DNA of 23,243 nucleotides from a virus. The notes under the pieces are model-generated. The model ran no database searches, was not told where the DNA came from, and worked only from the letters and a program-made list of their open reading frames with translations. The DNA is taken from positions 1 to 23,243 of IMG/VR virus record IMGVR_UViG_3300019890_000020; one strand, written 5' to 3'. This document shows, in pieces, positions 2 through 23,243 of the stretch (its first letter is position 1; each line of letters opens with the position of its first letter). Made by a program: the position numbers and the translations under genes.

Positions 2-97
2 GCGTACCCCGACACGGGTTTTCCCCCCGAGAATATCAGCGCCGAGGCTCTTGAAAGCAGGGAATCCTCAGGGGGTTCCGATCGGGTCAACCTCTAG
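2..97 (+). CDS. C-terminal end of an unidentified protein (5' truncated)
   Basis: An open frame runs from the window edge to a TAG at 95-97 and leaves 31 residues rich in Ser, Glu and Gly (ending SGGSDRVNL). The stop shares its last G with the GTG start of the next gene (TAGTG), the same tight coupling seen along the whole + strand block, so this is probably the tail of a real gene of the same operon. The visible part is too short and low in complexity to recognise a family. Its start and most of its coding region lie outside the window. Confidence 0.45.
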   Translation, partial: AYPDTGFPPENISAEALESRESSGGSDRVNL

Positions 98-477
98 TGC
101 CCGAGGCTAATCTCCACGACCTCTGGCATGTAGCCTGTGAGGATATGTTGTACGCGGAGAGAGGTGACGCCCACATGAATGGCGTCACCTCTTTTCAGTT
201 CGGCAGCATGTTCAAAGCAGACTCGATGGACTTCGAGTTTGATCTAGGCAAGGAGTTGTGGCTTACCAAGTCCCGTTTCACCTCCCTCAAGAGGGACTAC
301 ATCGACCCTATCCGCCTAGCCTACTTCTTCAAGCAGGTAGAGGAACTTCCACACAGGAGGGTGGCTACTGCGCAGATGATCTGTCGGATCAAGGGAGAGC
401 GCAGCCACGGAGACAACTGGGTCAGCTACAAGTGGGGTAACTGCATCCTCGGATTCAGTTACCCCACTTGTAGCTGA
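97..477 (+). CDS. Thymidylate synthase-fold protein, N-terminal fragment (gene broken by an inverted insertion)
   Basis: This frame encodes the front part of a ThyA-superfamily protein, which methylates or hydroxymethylates dUMP in the cytoplasm. Visible ThyA-like landmarks are an N-terminal GVTSFQFGSMF block (compare the GT-S-FG segment of ThyA), an Arg pair followed by a hydrophobic strand (LPHRRVATAQMIC, residues 85-96; compare SRRHIVSAWN), and a candidate catalytic Cys116 in GNCILGF (compare PCHTLFQF). Residue 120 is the last that fits the family; the next six are encoded by the right arm of an inverted repeat and run into a stop. Deleting exactly that 29-nt arm (456-484) joins this frame to the 507-929 frame, giving a 267-aa protein. 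The start is a GTG overlapping the preceding stop. The family match is by motif only. Whether the break exists in the virus or only in the assembly is open. Confidence 0.6.
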   Translation: MPEANLHDLWHVACEDMLYAERGDAHMNGVTSFQFGSMFKADSMDFEFDLGKELWLTKSRFTSLKRDYIDPIRLAYFFKQVEELPHRRVATAQMICRIKGERSHGDNWVSYKWGNCILGFSYPTCS

Positions 478-484
478 CCCAGTT
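415..484. repeat. 70-bp near-perfect palindrome: 29-bp inverted repeat with 12-bp spacer
   Basis: Positions 415-443 and 456-484 are exact reverse complements (29 of 29). The 12-bp spacer itself pairs at 4 further positions after one mismatch, so the two 35-nt halves match at 33 positions. It sits at the codons around the putative catalytic Cys of the thymidylate synthase-like gene. The left arm fits the protein family and the right arm does not, so the right arm is the likely inserted copy. Confidence 0.95.
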
Positions 485-506
485 CCGCTGCGAACCCGAG
501 CCTGAA

Positions 507-929
507 ATGTGCATGTACGCACGTACCACGCTTATTACCAGGATGGGAGGGATGGACCTTGCGCTTGCCTACACGCTTGCGAAGTACGTTGCAGACATTC
601 GCGAGGAAGACGTCAGCGACTATAAATTCACGTGGTACGTCGGGACGCTCTACCACTCGTCCCTCCACGCCATGCCTTACTTCTACGCGCATGGACATCA
701 CCTCGATATGTACGACTGGGACGCACATGACTACCCTGTGTTGGGAGCTATGCACAGGCAGCTGGAGTACAACGATCGGCTAGACAAAGAAGAACGCATT
801 ATCAAACACGGTACCAGGGAGCGCCTACGCAAGCAGCGCCGCAAATTCCAAGCAGACGAAGATGCACAGATTGCGGTGCCCTGCCCGGTGGACTCCCTGG
901 ACCTAGAGAGCCTGGAGGGCAAGCGGTGA
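507..929 (+). CDS. Thymidylate synthase-fold protein, C-terminal fragment
   Basis: This is the continuation of the ThyA-like gene that begins at 97, lying in a different frame because of the 29-nt inverted insertion. The frame is open from 474; in the reconstructed protein the junction reads CILGFRCEPEPEMCMYARTTL with the inserted arm removed. MYARTT corresponds to the LYQRSAD phosphate-binding segment of ThyA, GGMDLALAYTLAKYVA to the helix after it, and FTWYVGTLYHSSLH to the VHTLGDAHLY region. The last 50 residues are charged (RLRKQRRKFQ) and unlike ThyA. ATG 507 is only the first start codon in this frame and has no clear ribosome binding site, so independent translation is doubtful. The stop at 927-929 overlaps the GTG of the next gene, which suggests the gene is normally intact. 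Confidence 0.55.
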   Translation: MCMYARTTLITRMGGMDLALAYTLAKYVADIREEDVSDYKFTWYVGTLYHSSLHAMPYFYAHGHHLDMYDWDAHDYPVLGAMHRQLEYNDRLDKEERIIKHGTRERLRKQRRKFQADEDAQIAVPCPVDSLDLESLEGKR

Positions 930-1759
930 GAAGCTATGGAGACAACACTCTGCCACGCATTATCCACTGGTTACGAGAGGACTTGTTGGATGCACCCGAG
1001 GCAGACGTAAAAGAAGTTCACTCTCAGAGTATCGCAGGCAAACCTGAGTACATCACCAAAGAGATCGAGAACGTTACCTTCCAGACTCTTCTTCCCAGCG
1101 AGGCCAAAGATCTGGCAGATATCACCGGAGCAAACCTGCCTTGGGCAGAGGACCACTTTCGGGAGCGCGTCAGTGGCAAGCCTCTCAACCCACCGCCTTC
1201 GGCGGCCTGGTGGCCCTACGCACAGAAAGGTCATGCAGAACACACCGACGAGAATGAAAAGTTCTCCCACACCTACCCTGAGAGGTTCTGGCCAAAGTTC
1301 GCAGAGAGAGTTCCCGTCCCCGAGGGAGCCGAACGCAAGATACGTGCTTCGAACAAAGGGATCCGTTATCGCTACGGGGATCTGTTAGACGTCGTGGGGC
1401 AGCTACACAAGAACCCTGCAACCAGGCAAGCATACCTACCCGTCTGGTTTCCAGAGGACACCGGAGCAACCCAGGGACAACGTGTGCCCTGTACCCTCGG
1501 ATACCACTTTCTTATCCGAGAAAATCGGCTCAACATCACCTACTTCATCCGCTCCTGTGACTTTATGCGTCACTTTCGAGATGACGTGTACATGGCAGGA
1601 CGGCTTGCTCAGTGGGTACGGTACGAGTTGATGAAACGTGAGGGTCCCGAGGACCTACCTGTACCACAGGGGTTGGTTGTAGGGCACCTGACCATGCACA
1701 TCGTCTCGATGCATATCTTCAAAGGCGACGTGCCCACCCTCGAAAGGCAACACGCATGA
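926..1759 (+). CDS. Thymidylate synthase, ThyA family
   Basis: This 277-aa cytoplasmic enzyme is predicted to convert dUMP to dTMP with methylene-tetrahydrofolate, or possibly to make a hydroxymethylated product. Motifs read in ThyA order: a substrate strand NPATRQAYLPVWFPEDTG (163-180; compare NPDSRR-IVSAWNPED), the catalytic Cys189 in VPCTLGYHF, Arg209 in YFIRSCDF (compare YQRSAD), the helix DDVYMAGRLAQWV, and GHLTMHIVSMHIF (253-265; compare HTLGDAHLY). The second Arg of the usual RR pair is Gln here. The first 120 residues are unlike canonical ThyA. GTG at 926 overlaps the upstream stop (GTGA), and its own stop overlaps the deaminase start (ATGA). It is the second of two tandem ThyA-fold genes. 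The deaminase next door supplies dUMP, which supports the role. Confidence 0.8.
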   Translation: MRSYGDNTLPRIIHWLREDLLDAPEADVKEVHSQSIAGKPEYITKEIENVTFQTLLPSEAKDLADITGANLPWAEDHFRERVSGKPLNPPPSAAWWPYAQKGHAEHTDENEKFSHTYPERFWPKFAERVPVPEGAERKIRASNKGIRYRYGDLLDVVGQLHKNPATRQAYLPVWFPEDTGATQGQRVPCTLGYHFLIRENRLNITYFIRSCDFMRHFRDDVYMAGRLAQWVRYELMKREGPEDLPVPQGLVVGHLTMHIVSMHIFKGDVPTLERQHA

Positions 1760-2247
1760 GACCTACCAGAGGAGAGACGTTCATGCGAGCAGCGCACCTG
1801 TTCGCAGAACGCTCTACCTGCAATCGAGGCCACGTAGGGGCGGTACTGGTGGCAAACAGACGCATCATTGCACACGGTTACAACGGTGCTCCTCCTGGGA
1901 TGCCTCACTGCACCGATGTGGGGTGCGAGTGTGTGACGGTAGAGGTTCACCCTCACGGTCCCGAGGATCTCGGGGTCGTAGAGGGTTGGGTTGAGGGATG
2001 CCAACGAACTGTTCACGCAGAGGCTAATGCCATAGCGTATGCGGCCAAAGCAGGGGTAGAGACGGAGGGGTCGTACATGTTCTGTACCCACTCGCCCTGT
2101 CGCAAATGCATGGAGTTGGCTGCCTGTGCTGGGGTGGTGGAAATCATCTATGACAAGCCTTACCGAGCAACTCCGTTCGAGTTGGCTCCGTCTATGGGAA
2201 TCATTATCGTGGGGAGAGAGGGACTCGATGCCAGAGACGAATTCTAA
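1756..2247 (+). CDS. dCMP deaminase (zinc-dependent cytidine/deoxycytidylate deaminase family)
   Basis: This 163-aa enzyme is predicted to deaminate dCMP to dUMP, the substrate of the adjacent thymidylate synthase. The family signature is complete: His87-Ala-Glu89 (TVHAEANAIAYAA) for the zinc ligand and catalytic Glu, and SPCRKC with Cys115 and Cys118 as the other zinc ligands. The N-terminal CNRGHVGAVLV and HGYNGAPPGMPHC blocks match phage and bacterial dCMP deaminases, where extra Cys/His residues (Cys22, His51 and Cys52 here) can hold a second zinc. Length is typical. The start overlaps the upstream stop (ATGA). The gene order of two ThyA-like genes then the deaminase is a compact dTMP-synthesis cassette. 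Confidence 0.9.
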   Translation: MRPTRGETFMRAAHLFAERSTCNRGHVGAVLVANRRIIAHGYNGAPPGMPHCTDVGCECVTVEVHPHGPEDLGVVEGWVEGCQRTVHAEANAIAYAAKAGVETEGSYMFCTHSPCRKCMELAACAGVVEIIYDKPYRATPFELAPSMGIIIVGREGLDARDEF

Positions 2248-2674
2248 TGCAGAGGATGAGATGGAGGGATATGTCGGTCCTGGCCGACACAAAATGCCTA
2301 CGGACAGAGACGGGCTTAGTCACCGAGTAAAGATCGGGGGAATGGTCGGGTACATCACCGCAAACCCCCAGGACGACGGAACGCTCGGAGAGATTTTCAT
2401 CCATGGATTCGGGCAGCTAGGTAGCACTAACGCAGGGTGGACTAACGCATTTGCGATCATGGTATCTATCGGCTTGCAGTATGGAGTCGAGCTACCGATG
2501 CTTGCTCGCAAGTTTGCCCACATGAAATTCGACCCTAACGGTGAAACCGACAACCCAGCTATACCTCACTGCCAATCGATCCCTGATTATATCTTCAAGT
2601 GGATTGCTCTCCACTACGGAGACGACCAGCTCCGAGAGGAACTGCGCAAGATAGATGAGGAGCTTGGAAGGTGA
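2228..2674 (+). CDS. TSCPD-domain protein (ribonucleotide reductase-associated C-terminal domain)
   Basis: The product is about 148 aa. Most of it matches the TSCPD domain that usually forms the C-terminus of B12-dependent ribonucleotide reductases or occurs alone: a basic start (GRHKMPTDRDGLSHRVKIGG), a beta segment GYITANPQDDGTLGEIFIHG, a helix around AFAIMVSIGLQYGVEL, and SIPDYIFKWIALHYGD near the end. Its exact job is not established; the position beside dCMP deaminase and DNA polymerase suggests a nucleotide-metabolism role. The start is placed at ATG 2228, preceded by GGAGAGAGGG and overlapping the deaminase by 20 nt. An in-frame ATG at 2261 is an alternative. The longer open frame from 2126 lies almost wholly inside the deaminase gene and is rejected. 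No reductase catalytic domain is in the window. Confidence 0.7.
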   Translation: MPETNSNAEDEMEGYVGPGRHKMPTDRDGLSHRVKIGGMVGYITANPQDDGTLGEIFIHGFGQLGSTNAGWTNAFAIMVSIGLQYGVELPMLARKFAHMKFDPNGETDNPAIPHCQSIPDYIFKWIALHYGDDQLREELRKIDEELGR

Positions 2675-5049
2675 CGTTTCAAGAGAAGATCCGCAACCCC
2701 TCATGTACTCTGTGTCCGATGTACGAGGAAGCAGGTCACGTATGTCTTATGGGAGAGGGAGCACGCAAGGCGCAGATCTTCATAGTAGGAGAGGCACCTG
2801 GGGCGCAGGAGGACGAAGAGGGCCGTCCCTTTATCGGCTCCTCTGGCAAGCTGCTCACGAAGATGCTGAAAGAAGTAGCTGGCATAGATCGCAAAGACTG
2901 CTATATCACGAACGTAATCAAGTGTCGCCCACCTGACAACTCCACGCCAGGCAAAAAAGATATCAAGATCTGCGTGGAAGAGTACCTAGTCAAGGAGCTT
3001 GAAAGTGTCGAACCTAAGTGGGTCCTTACCCTTGGAAACTCAGCTCTCCAAGGAGTCCTGGGAAAATCTGGAATCACCAAGCACAGGGGGAATCTCACTA
3101 AACTTGGGGATTTCTCTGTTTTCCCTACGTTTCACCCTGCCGCTGTTCTGCGTAATCCGCGTTACGAGAACGAGCTCGTCGCTGATCTTCGGAAGTTCGG
3201 TGATCTCGTTAGAGGGGAAGATAACGCTCCTAAGACGAAGATCAAAATCATCCGGAACCTCAAGCAACTAAAGTGGTTAGATAAGGAGTTATTCGTAGCG
3301 AGAGGATTTACCTACGATATCGAGACGAACTATCTGCCTTACTGGGACCCGAACTTCAAAATAGTCTCGATCGCCTTCTCCTTCCGTGCAGAAGAGGCCG
3401 TTGTTGTACCCATCTACCATGATGAATCTCCATGGAAAGACCCGGCCGAGATACTTCATTTTCTTGGTAGATGGATGAAGCACAAGGATGCCAAACACGT
3501 AGCTCACAACGGCAAGTTCGATGCACAGGGAATGAAGAACTATGACATCGAGACGTATCAGACGTTTGACACTATGCTCGCGGCACACATGCTCGACGAG
3601 AACAGGTCAAAGGGTCTAAAGAATCTGTCTCAGTTCTACCTCCAAGCAGATGCCTATGGCTTAGGAGATGAGCTCAAAGACGCCCACAAAATCCCCCTTA
3701 AGAAACTGGCACTCTACAACGGTCGTGATACTGACTACACCCTGCGCCTCTACGGCAAAATGAAGAAAGAGCTGATCGAGGAACCACGAGTGCGTCGAGT
3801 CTTCCAGCGTCTAATGATGCCGGCCTCCAACGCTATCGTCAACGTAGAGCGACGCGGAGTACAGATCGACTACAAACGATGGACAGAGCGCAATGACATC
3901 GTGCAGGCCAACATCGCCAAGATCGAAAAGGCTATGCTCCCATATGTGCCAGAGCATATGCGCGCCGACATGAACTTCAACTCTCACCCTAAAGTAGCCA
4001 AATGGCTGTTCGAGGAATGTGGGTATGACGTACTAGAAGAGACGGAGAAAGGCGCCCCCTCGTCTAAAGAGGCAGTGCTACTCCAAATGCAAGCGGAGAG
4101 TCGAGAGGCAGCAATTCTCCTCAAATTCCGAAAATGGTTCAAGTACAACAGCACCTACTTCAGGCCGTGGATGGAGCGCTCCGACTCACAGAAAAAGATC
4201 CACCCTCAGTACAAGCTATACGGCACTGTCACCGGGCGCCTTTCCTGTGTTGAACCGAACTTGCAGCAAGTACCTCGGGAGCCGTTCGTACGCAGCGTCC
4301 TAGGCGCCTCCCCAGGCAACGTGTGGGTAGAGGCAGATTACTCACAGGCAGAGCTCAGGATCGCAGCAATGCTGGCTCACGAGACGAGGATGCTCCGCAT
4401 GTTCCAAGCGGGAGAAGATATTCATCTCAACACCGCTGCTGAAACGTCGGGTAAATCCAAAGACTCTATCACGAAGGAGGAGCGCAAGAAAGCCAAGGCC
4501 GTAAATTTTGGTTTCCTCTACGGCATGATGCCTAAAAAATTCGTCACCTATGCGCGTGACAACTATGGTGTCGTTGTCTCTCTTGCAGAGGCCACTAGAG
4601 TACGGGAACGGTTCTTTGCGTCCTATCCTGCTCTGCACCCCTGGCACGAGCGCCAGAAGCGTCTAGCGCACCGCTACAAGCGTGTAAGCAGCCCTATCGG
4701 GAGGGTCCGGCATCTACCTGACATTGACAGCCATGTAGACGGCATCAGGATGGATGCAGAGCGCCAGGCAATCAACAGTCCTGTACAATCCCTGGCCTCG
4801 GACTTCACGCTGCTGGCGATGATCTTGTTAGAGGAACAAGGCATCCCTGTGGTGGGTCTTATCCATGATGCTCTCGCCTTCGACATACCGGAAAACAAAC
4901 TCGAGTGGGCGCTCCCGATCATCAAACACACTATGGAAAACCTACCCCTCAAGAAGCTGTTTGATCTAGAGATAACCGTGCCGATCGTGGTAGATGTTTC
5001 TGTAGGGACTCATTGGAGTGACCCAACACAGAGGGAGTGGGAGGGATGA
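2671..5049 (+). CDS. Fused family-4 uracil-DNA glycosylase, 3'-5' exonuclease and family A DNA polymerase
   Basis: This is the replicative polymerase, 792 aa, with three domains. Residues 1-185 are a family-4 (Fe-S) uracil-DNA glycosylase: GEAPGAQEDEEGRPF, KCRPPDNSTPG, LTLGN, TFHPAAVL, and four cysteines placed as cluster ligands (12, 15, 85, 101). Residues 205-370 are a proofreading exonuclease with Asp216/Glu218 (YDIETN), Asp284 (HNGKFD) and Asp353 (YNGRDTDY). Residues 375-792 are the polymerase: TGRLSCVEPNLQQ, motif A Asp556 (EADYSQAELR), motif B Lys609/Phe613/Tyr617 (KAVNFGFLYG) and motif C His732-Asp733. Every catalytic position looks intact. Phe613 aligns with E. coli Pol I Phe762, so discrimination against dideoxynucleotides is expected. 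The GTG start overlaps the previous stop. The glycosylase could scan for uracil ahead of synthesis or remove it behind, which is inference. Confidence 0.92.
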   Translation: MTFQEKIRNPSCTLCPMYEEAGHVCLMGEGARKAQIFIVGEAPGAQEDEEGRPFIGSSGKLLTKMLKEVAGIDRKDCYITNVIKCRPPDNSTPGKKDIKICVEEYLVKELESVEPKWVLTLGNSALQGVLGKSGITKHRGNLTKLGDFSVFPTFHPAAVLRNPRYENELVADLRKFGDLVRGEDNAPKTKIKIIRNLKQLKWLDKELFVARGFTYDIETNYLPYWDPNFKIVSIAFSFRAEEAVVVPIYHDESPWKDPAEILHFLGRWMKHKDAKHVAHNGKFDAQGMKNYDIETYQTFDTMLAAHMLDENRSKGLKNLSQFYLQADAYGLGDELKDAHKIPLKKLALYNGRDTDYTLRLYGKMKKELIEEPRVRRVFQRLMMPASNAIVNVERRGVQIDYKRWTERNDIVQANIAKIEKAMLPYVPEHMRADMNFNSHPKVAKWLFEECGYDVLEETEKGAPSSKEAVLLQMQAESREAAILLKFRKWFKYNSTYFRPWMERSDSQKKIHPQYKLYGTVTGRLSCVEPNLQQVPREPFVRSVLGASPGNVWVEADYSQAELRIAAMLAHETRMLRMFQAGEDIHLNTAAETSGKSKDSITKEERKKAKAVNFGFLYGMMPKKFVTYARDNYGVVVSLAEATRVRERFFASYPALHPWHERQKRLAHRYKRVSSPIGRVRHLPDIDSHVDGIRMDAERQAINSPVQSLASDFTLLAMILLEEQGIPVVGLIHDALAFDIPENKLEWALPIIKHTMENLPLKKLFDLEITVPIVVDVSVGTHWSDPTQREWEG

Positions 5050-8699: not shown

Positions 8700-8988
8700 A
8701 ATCTCTGACACGAGCAGGGCGCACAGGACGCGCGCAGAACGGGCCGAGATCCTGCAAGGGCTAGAGGGCGGGACGGTCTACATCGTGGATCTCATATACG
8801 AGCCTGACCCCTGTGTGCAAGGCGCAGACCTCTGGCCTGTCCTTATGCGCGTTCCCGGCTTAGGACGGAGTGGAATCAAGCGCGCCTGTCAGCGTTCTAG
8901 AGTATGGCCACACGAAAGACTGGGTGAGCTCACTGAGGACGAGAAACTACGCCTCGTCACCTGTCTACCAGCAAGGTGCAAGAAATGA
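8692..8988 (+). CDS. mIHF-like (H2TH) DNA-binding protein
   Basis: A 98-aa basic protein. An N-terminal Arg-rich helix (RAHRTRAERAEILQGL) leads to a C-terminal half (50-92: VLMRVPGLGRSGIKRACQRSRVWPHERLGELTEDEKLRLV) that resembles the S13-like/helix-two-turn-helix domain of mycobacterial integration host factor: a PG-G loop, then an R-LG-L turn and a final helix. mIHF is confined to actinobacteria and their phages, so this is the best host clue in the window. It may bend DNA in replication, recombination or packaging. A CEDP-type role is not shown. The start overlaps the nuclease gene by 8 nt. Confidence 0.6.
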   Translation: MPRISDTSRAHRTRAERAEILQGLEGGTVYIVDLIYEPDPCVQGADLWPVLMRVPGLGRSGIKRACQRSRVWPHERLGELTEDEKLRLVTCLPARCKK

Positions 8989-9290
8989 GACTTAACGAAG
9001 ACGATATCTCAAAACTCAAGGTGCTGGAGACTCTAGACCATATTGAAGGGGTGATGAAAGAGCTTGCAGGAGGTTCTTTCTGGAGACACCCCTTTAGATG
9101 GATGATGTACAAGAGTGCAAGACGTCAAGCCAAGAAGCTGCGCGCGTTCGTGCAAGAAAGCTTGAAGATACAGTGCCAACACAGGGGTCCAGATAGTGGG
9201 CGCGGGTACTTCTATCACTGTGATAAACCGATGGGTCATGATGGAGACCACGGTTTCAGCAGCGACGACGCGATAGTGCAATGGCCTTAG
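8985..9290 (+). CDS. Hypothetical protein with basic region and Cys/His-rich C-terminus
   Basis: A 101-aa protein. ATG 8985 is chosen because it overlaps the previous stop (ATGA); an in-frame GTG at 8976 is the alternative. The middle is basic and hydrophobic (FWRHPFRWMMYKSARRQAKKLRAF). The end has a Cys/His set (CQHRGPDSGRGYFYHCDKPMGHDGDH) reminiscent of the short phage motif C-H...Y-C...GH-G-H, which may bind a metal. No known family is claimed. It overlaps the next gene by 10 nt. Confidence 0.6.
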   Translation: MRLNEDDISKLKVLETLDHIEGVMKELAGGSFWRHPFRWMMYKSARRQAKKLRAFVQESLKIQCQHRGPDSGRGYFYHCDKPMGHDGDHGFSSDDAIVQWP

Positions 9291-9472
9291 GAAACTGGTT
9301 ATATAAGTGGGCTGCTCGTGCTGCTTTTGAATCTGTCACGGGAGAACCCTATCAAGCCGGAGAAGCACGAGCTCGGGTACGCGCTGAGGAACGACGCAGA
9401 CTTAGACGAGAACGCCAAGAAAAAACCCCCCCGACGCCGAAGCGCCGAGGGGGCCAGGAGGACGAGGGATGA
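9281..9472 (+). CDS. Small Arg-rich hypothetical protein, last gene of the + strand block
   Basis: A 63-aa protein beginning MALGNWLYKWAARAAFES with a very basic middle (RVRAEERRRLRRERQ). ATG 9281 overlaps the previous gene by 10 nt, which favours this frame over the alternative at 9318-9509. Its C-terminal codons coincide with the stem of the terminator that serves the opposite strand, so the Pro/Arg-rich end (TPPTPKRRGG) may reflect that constraint. Function unknown. Confidence 0.5.
   Translation: MALGNWLYKWAARAAFESVTGEPYQAGEARARVRAEERRRLRRERQEKTPPTPKRRGGQEDEG
9420..9453 (-). terminator. Rho-independent terminator for the - strand tail/lysis block
   Basis: Read on the - strand, 9453-9426 forms a 12-bp stem (ten Watson-Crick and two G-U pairs) closed by a UUCG tetraloop, followed at once by six T (9425-9420). 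On the + strand the two G-U positions become A-C mismatches and no T run follows, so the signal is directional. It lies about 50 nt past the holin stop and inside the last + strand gene. Confidence 0.88.
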
Positions 9473-9481
9473 CTACCTCGT

Positions 9482-9507
9482 CTTCGACGCGTTAGCGCCG
9501 AAGTTTT
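9482..9507 (+). terminator. Likely rho-independent terminator for the + strand block
   Basis: Positions 9482-9503 fold into an 8-bp stem with one A-C mismatch and a GTTA loop (CTTCG-A-CGC / GCG-C-CGAAG), followed by TTTT at 9504-9507. It lies 10 nt after the last + strand stop and overlaps the stop codon of the convergent holin gene. The T run is short, so efficiency is uncertain. Confidence 0.65.
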
Positions 9508-9913
9508 AGTGGCTAAGCATTCCAGCAGAGCCCGGGGGGTCTACCTTCTGGAGGACCACGCCCTTGTTCGGTACACGCCACACAGCATAGGTGGCAGCGA
9601 TGAAGGCGTAGATAAAGCCTCCGATCTTGACTCCTGTAGCTGCGGGGATTTCGTGGAAAAACAGGGCAATTGAGAAAAGTCCCGGGAGCAACTGGGATAC
9701 CGCCTTGTCGACCGCATCCTGGGTAACGTTCTTCGTCATCACCACAGCCACAGTCGCACCTAGCAAAGGGATCAACGAGATGACTTTAGATTCAAAGTCT
9801 GCGTTGATGTGGAATCCGAAGATGTTCCCTCCCCAGAACAGGGCGATTGCTGCGAATGCAAAGATCGCAAAGCTGGTCAGAGCCTTTGCGTACTTTTGAA
9901 TCATTGCTGTCAT
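9506..9913 (-). CDS. Holin-like multi-span membrane protein
   Basis: A 135-aa hydrophobic protein with about four membrane segments: FAIFAFAAIALFWGGNIFGF (14-33), VISLIPLLGATVAVVM (44-59), LLPGLFSIALFFH (75-87) and IGGFIYAFIAATYAVW (97-112), then a polar tail. It starts in an ATGA overlap with the amidase stop and has AAGGAGAG 7 nt upstream. Small multi-span proteins directly after an endolysin are usually holins, which open the membrane to release it. The role rests on topology and neighbourhood, not on a sequence match. It is the last gene of the block. Confidence 0.72.
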   Translation of the reverse strand: MTAMIQKYAKALTSFAIFAFAAIALFWGGNIFGFHINADFESKVISLIPLLGATVAVVMTKNVTQDAVDKAVSQLLPGLFSIALFFHEIPAATGVKIGGFIYAFIAATYAVWRVPNKGVVLQKVDPPGSAGMLSH

Positions 9914-10569
9914 GCTCTCTCCTTCTTAGGACGACCCGAACCCTCGGATCCGGGGATCAACGGTTTGACGTGATGCACCCTGCGGATATCGTTGATCTTC
10001 TTCCGCAAGTGGTTGGTGTGTGGTGCAGCTGGGTGCAGCTGATCTGCGATGAAGTATTGTGCCAGTAGGGTGACGTACCCCTGTGGGTAGCCGGCGCCGC
10101 AGTCTGAATGACCACTGCCTGAGATCCCGAGATCCTTGTGCTGGAAGATCCCTGGCACGATGATCGAGGATCCAGAGCACTTGCCCTTCTGCAACGGGAC
10201 TCCGTAGTGGATGTGCCCGTACACAAGGAATTCGGCGGCGCCGTGTAGTTGCTCGTGACGCTCTCCGAACCACTGAGCCTCGGTGTAGGCAGCAAAGGCG
10301 ATCTGCTCCAGGCTGAGCGTGATCGAGTTGTAATTGCAGACGGCCCACGCCTTCGCGGCATCATCTACATAGCGTCCGAAGACACCCTTGACGTTCACCC
10401 CTAAGTGTGCGGAAGCCTCCTCGTTATGGAAAATACTGCCAAGAGTTTTGAGATCTGCCATCCCAGAGGGGTTATCACTACCCTCTGTGGTATGGAGAAC
10501 TAGTCCGTGAATACGAGCTCCCTCTCGACTGGACTGCTTTGGTGAGATATCGGTGTAATCAACTTTCAT
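9910..10569 (-). CDS. Endolysin: N-acetylmuramoyl-L-alanine amidase (Amidase_2/PGRP-like)
   Basis: A 219-aa enzyme predicted to cut the bond between MurNAc and the stem peptide. Zinc-site residues in the order of the T7-lysozyme fold are His26 (GLVLHTTEG), His144 (FQHKDLG, compare HRDV) and Cys157 (HSDCGAGYP, compare TECPG); Glu88 (SLEQI) is in the usual active-site strand. The fold ends near residue 175. The basic tail (LRKKINDIRRVHH...GRPKKERA) has no known wall-binding repeat. There is no signal peptide, which fits export through a holin. The start is ATG 10569 because AAGGAGGA lies 4 nt upstream; a longer open frame to 10614 overlaps the collagen-like gene. Confidence 0.88.
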   Translation of the reverse strand: MKVDYTDISPKQSSREGARIHGLVLHTTEGSDNPSGMADLKTLGSIFHNEEASAHLGVNVKGVFGRYVDDAAKAWAVCNYNSITLSLEQIAFAAYTEAQWFGERHEQLHGAAEFLVYGHIHYGVPLQKGKCSGSSIIVPGIFQHKDLGISGSGHSDCGAGYPQGYVTLLAQYFIADQLHPAAPHTNHLRKKINDIRRVHHVKPLIPGSEGSGRPKKERA

Positions 10570-10579
10570 CCTGTCCTCC

Positions 10580-11287
10580 TTATTGAGGTACGCAAGTAAA
10601 CGTACCGTTTTCATTGTCAGTACAAGTAAGGGTACTTACTGCACCAGGTTCACCTGGAGGTCCCGGGGGTCCTTCGGGACCGGGTGGTCCTTCCGGTCCT
10701 ACGGGGCCGACCGGGCCTTCAACTCCTTGAGCTCCTACTTCACCGTTAGCCCCGGTTGTTCCGGTTTCACCCTTGTCACCCTTATCCCCTTTGGCACCTG
10801 CTTCACCATTAAGTCCCGGTTCACCCTTACTACCATTTGAGCCGCGTTCACCGTTAATTCCGTTTACTCCAGAGTCACCCTTAGGCCCTTCAAGACCCAT
10901 CGGGCCGGGAGGCCCTTCGGGACCAAGTACACCTCGTTCGCCTTTAGGGCCTACCGGACCTCGTTTTCCTTGTGATCCCGGAAGACCGATGCCAGCTGGT
11001 CCTGGTTCCCCAGGTTTACCGTTGGCGCCAGGTACACCGGGCAGGCCCCGTTCTCCACGCAGATATTCAAGCGTTGCCGAGAGTTTGTGCCGGTTTTTGG
11101 CTGACTGATGTCTGGCAATCGTTGCCTTGCCTGACGCCTTGGTTGCAGTCCTCTGAGCCTGTGCAGTTGCATCCTGTCGTTCACTAGAGTGGTTGGCAAG
11201 AAGGAGGTAGAGAACGACAAGAACACAGATCAGAATTGCGGCAGCGATTAAGAGTAGAGTCTTGTTTCTACGGCTGAGGTTTTTCAT
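10580..11287 (-). CDS. Membrane-anchored collagen-like protein
   Basis: A 235-aa protein with a short basic N-terminus, one membrane span (LLLIAAAILICVLVVLYLLL, about 11-30), a polar 45-residue stem, 46 Gly-X-Y triplets (78-217) and a short end with two cysteines (STLTCTDNENGTFTCVPQ). The triplets run unbroken except for one missing residue at GI-GLP. They are rich in GPP, GEP, GDK and GER, as in trimeric bacterial and phage collagen-like proteins. Phage collagen repeats usually sit in tail fibres; the N-terminal span is unusual and suggests insertion in the host membrane or a cleaved leader. It overlaps the XhlA-like gene (ATGA) and precedes the endolysin. Function unknown. Confidence 0.75.
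   Translation of the reverse strand: MKNLSRRNKTLLLIAAAILICVLVVLYLLLANHSSERQDATAQAQRTATKASGKATIARHQSAKNRHKLSATLEYLRGERGLPGVPGANGKPGEPGPAGIGLPGSQGKRGPVGPKGERGVLGPEGPPGPMGLEGPKGDSGVNGINGERGSNGSKGEPGLNGEAGAKGDKGDKGETGTTGANGEVGAQGVEGPVGPVGPEGPPGPEGPPGPPGEPGAVSTLTCTDNENGTFTCVPQ
10637..11056 (-). repeat. Gly-X-Y (collagen) codon repeat
   Basis: 46 triplets, each beginning with a GGN codon, give 9-nt periodicity, with one 3-nt phase break. On the + strand the same region reads as Pro-rich frames that are only shadows of this repeat. Confidence 0.9.
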
Positions 11288-11535
11288 GGGGAGCCTTTCT
11301 GGGCAAGCACCACGATCAAGCCGACTACAGCGCTGCCGATCATGCCACCGAAGAATCCGGCCAGTGCGACCTTGACGTTTAGCTTAGTAATTTCGATACC
11401 TTGTTCCACCTGTCGTTCACCCTGCTTCTTCTGCTCGTCCTTTAGTTCTTTAACGTCATCCTTTATATTCGAGATGCTCTCGTTCATTTCACCTAACCAC
11501 TGAGCTTGCTTTTCGGCAAGAGTTTGAGGAACCAT
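11284..11535 (-). CDS. XhlA-like coiled-coil membrane protein
   Basis: An 83-aa protein. Residues 14-54 form a charged coiled coil (ESISNIKDDVKELKDEQKKQ...), and 55-78 are a single C-terminal membrane span (VALAGFFGGMIGSAVVGLIVVLA). This plan matches the XhlA family, which aids holin-endolysin lysis in Bacillus prophages, or a small cell-surface/tail adaptor. It lies between the tail genes and the collagen-like and endolysin genes. The start overlaps the upstream stop as TGATG. The span at the C-terminus, not the N-terminus, argues against an exported protein. Confidence 0.62.
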   Translation of the reverse strand: MVPQTLAEKQAQWLGEMNESISNIKDDVKELKDEQKKQGERQVEQGIEITKLNVKVALAGFFGGMIGSAVVGLIVVLAQKGSP

Positions 11536-22510: not shown

Positions 22511-22809
22511 TTACTTATCCCTTCCTTTTCCACCAAACAACGGCGGCGGTGGTGTCGGTTTCTCATCCGGGCTTTCTCCCGGGGGAGTCTTTTGCTCCTC
22601 CACTACCGGCTCGTCTGAATCCTCCGGCGTGTCGGTTGTCTCTTCATCGGGAGGCACTTCCCCGATCACCTTCAAGCCCCCACCTTCGATAAGGGTTTTC
22701 TCCTGGAATTCGGAGAGGTCTGCGGTGAACGTAACTCCCGGAGAGTGTCCCAGGATTTCCAGGAGAAAACCCTTTCCGTAGGCCCGCAGTTTTCGTACTG
22801 TTTCTTCAT
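22511..22809 (-). CDS. Small acidic/proline-rich protein with no start codon in frame (apparent frameshift near the 5' end)
   Basis: An open frame between the DUF3168-like gene and the major tail protein gene encodes about 97 residues: ETVRKLRAYGKGFLLEILGHSPGVTF... then an acidic, Pro-rich end (PPDEETTDTPEDSDEPVVEE...PTPPPPLFGGKGRDK) stopping exactly at the tail protein start. It is open back to a TAG at 22825-22823 but has no ATG, GTG or TTG in the 5' part. ATG 22809, which overlaps the upstream stop (ATGA) as expected for the true start, is one base out of frame. Adding one A to the AAA four codons in would give MKK-TVRKLRAYGKGF. A sequencing indel is therefore likely, with real recoding the alternative. 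No family is recognised. Confidence 0.55.
22691..22774. repeat. 18-bp perfect inverted repeat, 48-bp spacer
   Basis: Positions 22691-22708 and 22757-22774 are exact reverse complements (18 of 18) with no extension either side. Both arms are inside the small gene upstream of the major tail protein. Because 18 is a multiple of 3, an inverted copy here would not break the frame. Confidence 0.9.
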
Positions 22810-23243
22810 TCTTTCTTCTCCACTATGAGGTTGTAGTTGTGGCCTGTATGCTGGAACCTCTCTCCATCACTGACTTCTGGGTAATTGACACGTGACATAG
22901 AACGCACGAACAGTACGTCATAACCATCGATGGAAAGTTTTTCACTATTGAGTAGTTCCTTGCAGCGCTTATCGATGGACTCAGCCTGCTTGGCACTACC
23001 TACACCCTTGATCAGTAGTTGTCCGTCTTCCATCGGTTCACCGTCGAAAGTCCATGATTCATTCCCCGTTGGATCTTCGAAGATCACGTAAGGCAACTCG
23101 GCTTCAGGATTCTGCGGAGCCAGCTGGTAGTACACTCCTTTAACCAATTCCATCAGCACAGGGTCGGCTTTCAGGAATTTCTCGATGCCTTCACGGATGG
23201 GGTCTACTTCAGCTTTGAAGGCATCGAGAAATTCCTGAAAGCC
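22806..23243 (-). CDS. DUF3168-like tail terminator/completion protein (5' end not resolved)
   Basis: The frame is open from the window edge to the TGA at 22806. The reliable part reads DPIREGIEKFLKADPVLMELV, then GVYYQLAPQNPEAELPYVIFEDPTGNESW and ends HTGHNYNLIVEKKE. This resembles DUF3168-type proteins, which cap the tail tube or join it to the head: an N-terminal helix with L-AD--L--LV-G-VY---AP-----PYV-F, then beta strands. Its place before the major tail protein fits. GTG 23159 is the first start codon, but the family-like sequence extends upstream of it, so the true start is probably beyond 23180. The last 27 nt are an inverted copy of 23166-23192 and may not be native, so the first nine residues read from the edge are doubtful. 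Confidence 0.7.
   Translation of the reverse strand, partial: GFQEFLDAFKAEVDPIREGIEKFLKADPVLMELVKGVYYQLAPQNPEAELPYVIFEDPTGNESWTFDGEPMEDGQLLIKGVGSAKQAESIDKRCKELLNSEKLSIDGYDVLFVRSMSRVNYPEVSDGERFQHTGHNYNLIVEKKE
23166..23243. repeat. 27-bp perfect inverted repeat ending exactly at the window end, 24-bp spacer
   Basis: Positions 23166-23192 and 23217-23243 are exact reverse complements (27 of 27). The right arm occupies the very last bases of the sequence. A contig ending in a fold-back of its own last hundred bases is characteristic of a hairpin chimera or an assembly dead end. Confidence 0.95.

Follow-up and report, generated by a model that had tools for sequence, protein, structure and literature searches.

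Results

An inverted copy within a conserved phage gene

We analyzed an IMG/VR virus record in its entirety, and refer to its full length of 23,243 bases as the window. Close to the left end, a gene of the phrog_13667 family is divided between two reading frames, and the division coincides with a palindrome (Table 1). A repeat scan bore out the observation, first made in a sequence-only reading of this DNA, that the segment 456-484 repeats 415-443 in reverse complement without a mismatch, which makes an inverted repeat of 29 nt. The palindrome extends to arms of 34 nt (415-448 and 451-484, 97% identity) separated by a loop of only 2 nt. Folded as RNA, it has a predicted energy of -73.1 kcal/mol (z = -13.8 versus shuffled sequences).

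Table 1. Features of the window at and around the three fold-backs
Position	Strand	Feature	Basis or remark
97..477	+	N-terminal fragment of the broken gene with a predicted thymidylate synthase fold (phrog_13667 family)	Reads into the inverted arm, then stop
415..443	+	Source (original) arm, encoding part of DNWVSYKWGNC	Found in L001
445..454	+	ATCC-TC-GGAT, short complementarity that could prime a fold-back	Sequence reading; stem in the RNA fold
456..484	+	Inverted copy of 415-443	Net gain versus L001 of 23 nt
507..929	+	C-terminal fragment of the same broken gene, in a different frame	ORF list; match to the L001 gene
926..1759	+	Intact ThyA-type gene downstream of the broken gene, conserved synteny	PF00303, phrog_160
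22511..22809	-	Second gene broken by a fold-back, located between the genes for tail terminator and major tail protein; the version of the relative has 96 aa	G001 comparison
22691..22708	+	Original arm of the second fold-back	Scan; comparison with the relative
22757..22774	+	Inverted copy of 22691-22708; net insertion of 17 nt at 22757-22773	Missing in the relative; breaks the second gene
23166..23193	+	Original arm of the third fold-back	Scan; comparison with the relative
23216..23243	+	Inverted copy of 23166-23193; the contig ends with these 28 nt	Scan; comparison with the relative

A megablast search of the window against isolate phages returned no match. The closest relative is a 51-kb IMG/VR contig, IMGVR_UViG_3300036792_000159 (L001 / G001), which aligns to window positions 85-4997 at 80% DNA identity; around the homologue of the broken gene (window 85-981) the identity is 86%. 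In the relative this homologue (L001:3614-4420) is unbroken and encodes 269 amino acids. The frames 97-477 and 507-929 match its N-terminal and C-terminal portions, respectively, which confirms the earlier claim that they are parts of one gene. The comparison with homologous phage genes suggested in the sequence-only reading gave a uniform answer: the gene is whole in all 59 aligned homologues (that of the relative and 58 others from IMG/VR loci), and an insert like that of the window is present in none of them. Judging by the relative, the left arm 415-443 is ancestral and the right arm 456-484 has been added. The dN/dS ratios against the relative (0.05 for the 97-477 half and 0.044 for the 507-929 half) indicate strong purifying selection on either half of this gene. 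This suggests that the break is either recent or not real.

The alignment with the relative also defines the size of the change. The sequence GGGTTC-TCG-TTCCGT of the relative corresponds to GGATTC-AGTTACCCCACTTGTAGCTGACCCAG-TTCCGC in the window, so that 26 nt replace 3, with a net gain of 23 nt. An exact insertion of 29 nt is thereby ruled out; 3 to 6 ancestral nucleotides must have been replaced by the copy 456-484 or coincide with it. The proposal that removal of the 29 nt restores the frame exactly is thus correct as to the frame, the difference between 29 and 23 being 6, but not as to the product, which at 267 amino acids is two residues short. For the same reason the ThyA landmarks, said to become correctly spaced after the excision, would still be two codons (Ser-Phe) too close together: W113 to R135 would span 21 residues, whereas this stretch has at least 23 residues in all 59 homologues and exactly 23 in 45 of them.

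Predicted fold and genomic context of the broken gene

The broken gene is assigned to phrog_13667, a family annotated as having unknown function. A Pfam search with both fragments recovered no family, and PF00303 in particular was not matched; a profile comparison of the broken gene with the neighbouring ThyA gave a probability of 0.1%. We obtained an AlphaFold model of an intact homologue (pLDDT 91, pTM 0.90). The Foldseek matches listed for it were nearly all thymidylate synthases (TS) or CMP/dCMP hydroxymethylases, the rest being TS-DHFR or phage dCMP hydroxylase. The fold matches listed for the intact homologue ran from a Z of 14.1 for the best down to about 10.5, with E. coli and other TS at about 11. 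The negative profile comparison with ThyA is not decisive, since the fold search did match TS. According to the model, the phrog_13667 protein has a predicted thymidylate synthase fold that is closest to the CMP/dCMP hydroxymethylases, and the broken gene is TS-like by fold, not one to be filed as a ThyA or PF00303 member. The earlier description of the gene as thymidylate synthase-like accordingly holds at the level of predicted structure and not at the level of sequence, where neither a Pfam model nor a profile link was found.

Three residues, C116, R135 and D146, are invariant in the 59 homologues at near-TS spacing, and by this spacing the first two may correspond to the catalytic Cys and the substrate-binding Arg of TS. 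If D146 is equivalent to N177 of E. coli TS, as spacing only would have it, it suggests a cytidylate substrate. Of five isolate actinophages examined, three (Zuko, JacoRen57 and Margaret) have the phrog_13667 gene immediately preceding a thymidylate synthase gene, and a small gene separates the two in Huwbert and Shrew. The surrounding block in these actinophages comprises a helicase, a nucleotide kinase, dUTPase or MazG, usually dCMP deaminase, and DNA polymerase I. In the IMG/VR loci, too, the phrog_13667 gene sits upstream of a ThyA-type match.

Other genes of the window have features of their own. The ThyA-type protein encoded at 926-1759 has C189 and R209, plus D220 at the position of N177, counted from the catalytic Cys, and the best solved match of its profile is the CMP hydroxymethylase MilA. 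In known enzymes Asp at position 177 favours dCMP (PMC8670742). The name thymidylate synthase may therefore be a misnomer in these phages. The region 2671-5049 encodes a uracil-DNA glycosylase domain fused to a family A DNA polymerase with a 3'-5' exonuclease; Streptomyces phage Zuko and Curtobacterium phage Shrew likewise have polymerases with a uracil-DNA glycosylase domain. On the minus strand, the ORF at 10580-11287 contains a long collagen-like tract of Gly-X-Y repeats.

Two further fold-backs in the same contig

We scanned for fold-backs with perfect arms of at least 14 nt and no more than 100 nt between the arms. The window contains exactly three, with arms of 29 nt (415/456), 28 nt (23166/23216) and 18 nt (22691/22757); the last two had been overlooked in the sequence-only reading. 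The same scan of the 51-kb relative recovered zero fold-backs. In all three cases the left arm is found in the relative and the right arm is missing from it. A common k-mer cause of the arm lengths 18, 28 and 29 was considered and dropped, as no single k fits them.

The second fold-back repeats the situation of the first in another gene, where the frames flanking the 17-nt insert match the protein of the relative (GPTE on one side, ILGHSP on the other). At the third, homology to the relative extends as far as 23215 and is lost with the first base of the terminal added arm. Among the window genes that can be compared with the relative, each is contained in a single frame except for two, both of which are broken exactly at fold-backs. 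This comparison covers genes with a counterpart in the relative; the region 8976-11535, largely without counterpart, lies outside it. General pseudogene decay is ruled out, because only these two comparable genes are broken, both at fold-backs, and the others are intact. No other contig with the same junction was found in a search that may not cover the window's own or very near records.

Fold-backs in related loci

In a first comparator set of 45 loci (674 kb), long fold-backs were confined to two AT-rich repeat tracts, and none of the 48 contig ends surveyed carried a terminal fold-back. A second set of 79 loci (1.42 Mb) contained six distinct perfect fold-backs of 16-21 nt, most of them outside ORFs of at least 60 aa or at an ORF edge; none of the six was seen breaking a gene. 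Perfect fold-backs reach 21 nt at most in the combined set of 119 IMG/VR loci (2.0 Mb, not counting two AT-repeat loci). Fold-backs of at least 18 nt occur there at 0.058 per 23 kb, versus three in the window. The Poisson estimate for three fold-backs, P of about 3e-5, is post hoc, draws on loci that are not fully independent and serves as a guide only. A lineage-wide tendency to form fold-backs was not seen in the closest relative, in L015-L018 or in the wider set.

Two comparator cases deserve description. L074:4393-4496 and L075:4393-4496, in near-identical contigs from two samples, share one intergenic fold-back with perfect arms of 19 nt and a spacer of 66 nt, which suggests that some phage fold-backs are real and stable. 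At L064:18906-18956, where there is no ORF, an 18-nt perfect fold-back surrounds GGTTCGAACC, which resembles a tRNA T-arm.

Discussion

Proposed copying mechanism

A fold-back template switch, whether it took place in a cell or in a tube, is well supported as the mechanism. The sequence-only reading had recognized this signature, and the ancestral left arm, the added right arm and the short complementarity at the switch point all agree with it. We propose that a 3' end growing in the + direction paused after GGATTC, where GGAT could pair with its own preceding ATCC and so prime a fold-back. The polymerase would then have copied 415-443 backwards, making 456-484, and the strand would have re-annealed to the original template at TTCCG, with the net gain of 23 nt. 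The same error at 22757 would have placed TTCC opposite GGAA 48 nt back, with re-entry within a TT(T)CC run and a net gain of 17 nt; at 23216 it would have terminated the contig. Complementarity at the switch point amounts to 4 nt in each of the first two events (GGAT/ATCC and TTCC/GGAA) and to 0-1 nt in the terminal one. Both internal events return to the original template, and the terminal event is the contig end. If the ancestral Ser codon of the broken gene was AGT and not the TCG of the relative, the first event would have begun from a longer imperfect palindrome.

Origin of the fold-backs

In our judgement the fold-backs are probably errors of amplification, library preparation or assembly. 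The copying would have happened outside the cell, during amplification (by phi29 or PCR) or library preparation, and the miscopied molecule would have entered an assembly of low coverage or one derived from a single molecule. An origin in vitro is most likely because three events are found in one 23-kb contig and one of them is the contig end. The sequence-only reading had left the choice open between a fresh mutation, a functional hairpin and a chimera; the two additional fold-backs tip the balance toward a technical chimera, and the hairpin finds no support among homologues. Against a technical origin, the internal events rejoin the template, whereas the commonest chimeras of multiple displacement amplification (MDA) and of libraries are single joins; the terminal junction differs from the other two in having almost no complementarity, or none; and a well-covered assembly would normally outvote such molecules. 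An alternative with some probability is real template-switch mutation during replication in the host; two genes would then have been newly disrupted in the phage genome, or in part of the population. Two switches combined with short complementarity are the classical structure of a cellular template-switch mutation, such changes are documented in nature (PMC7954356, PMC8794818), and the internal copies lie within otherwise clean sequence. We nevertheless regard this origin as unlikely. At least two rare events would have had to occur independently in a genome whose comparable genes are otherwise without lesions, and both internal events break genes, one of them under strong purifying selection and intact in all 59 homologues. 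The closest relatives are without fold-backs, so that no lineage-wide mutator is visible, and it would stay unexplained why the contig ends inside the third fold-back. Bursts of fold-back template-switch mutagenesis in vivo, in which virus or host replication produces several short inverted copies per genome at once, appear more doubtful still.

The inserts are flanked by identical codons in both genes (TTC...TTC and GAA...GAA), resembling take-off and landing sites, and the hairpin is very stable; a functional hairpin or a translational bypass element, with ribosomes skipping the insert, would be one way to read these features, and bypass of the insert in the second gene would indeed yield a product matching the relative. 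Matching flanking codons are, however, an automatic consequence of the short homology used in template switching. If ribosomes bypassed the insert of the first gene, the W113-R135 stretch would be shorter than in any homologue; the insert occurs in no homologue, and no such function is applicable to the third fold-back at the contig end. We consider a functional element of this kind highly improbable. A chance inverted repeat, or an ordinary structured element (a terminator or an operator, for example), has some precedent in the perfect intergenic fold-backs of 16-21 nt of related phage contigs. Yet perfect arms of 28-29 nt far exceed chance expectation, and each of the first two fold-backs disrupts a conserved or homologous gene from within. 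This origin is scarcely credible, and chance or a terminator hairpin was ruled out by the absence of the added arms from the relative.

The palindrome thus most probably arose through faulty DNA copying rather than being part of the virus itself, and its value is a modest one, as a lesson in quality control. Should the fold-backs be technical, they illustrate how such chimeras, by disrupting genes in virus contigs assembled from metagenomes, can be mistaken for mutations or split genes; looking for perfect inverted copies within genes and at the ends of contigs would be a simple way of detecting them. Should they be real, a single phage genome would have acquired several template-switch mutations, an example of unusual clarity.

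Comparison with known systems

Among the chimeras formed by phi29 polymerase in MDA, more than 85% are inverted joins and more than 70% of junctions have 2-21 nt of complementarity (Lasken and Stockwell 2007, PMC1855051). The fold-backs of the window are similar in joining inverted sequence from nearby and, for the two internal ones, in the possible priming by short complementarity, and such chimeras are expected in low-input environmental DNA. MDA chimeras, however, typically consist of one join with an intervening deletion, whereas here two of the three events return to the template after 17-29 nt. Chimeras that arise in library end repair carry inverted repeats (PMC10908179), and the short inverted copies at fragment ends in such reads (PMC10908179, PMC6941819) resemble the end of our contig; being artefacts of read ends, they alone do not explain internal copies whose sequence runs on into the right flank. 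During PCR, inverted repeats induce polymerases to change strands and to go on copying the opposite one (PMC5218489). This structure-induced switching shares with our events the copying of the opposite strand at an inverted repeat and the return within one molecule, but there the loop between existing repeats is inverted, and here a new arm is added. The same jump, reverse copying and return, with one event leading to a perfect stem, characterize the short-range template-switch mutations of genomes (PMC7954356, PMC8794818). Those mutations are dispersed and have been fixed over evolution, whereas the window holds three events in a single contig, two of them gene-breaking and one terminal.
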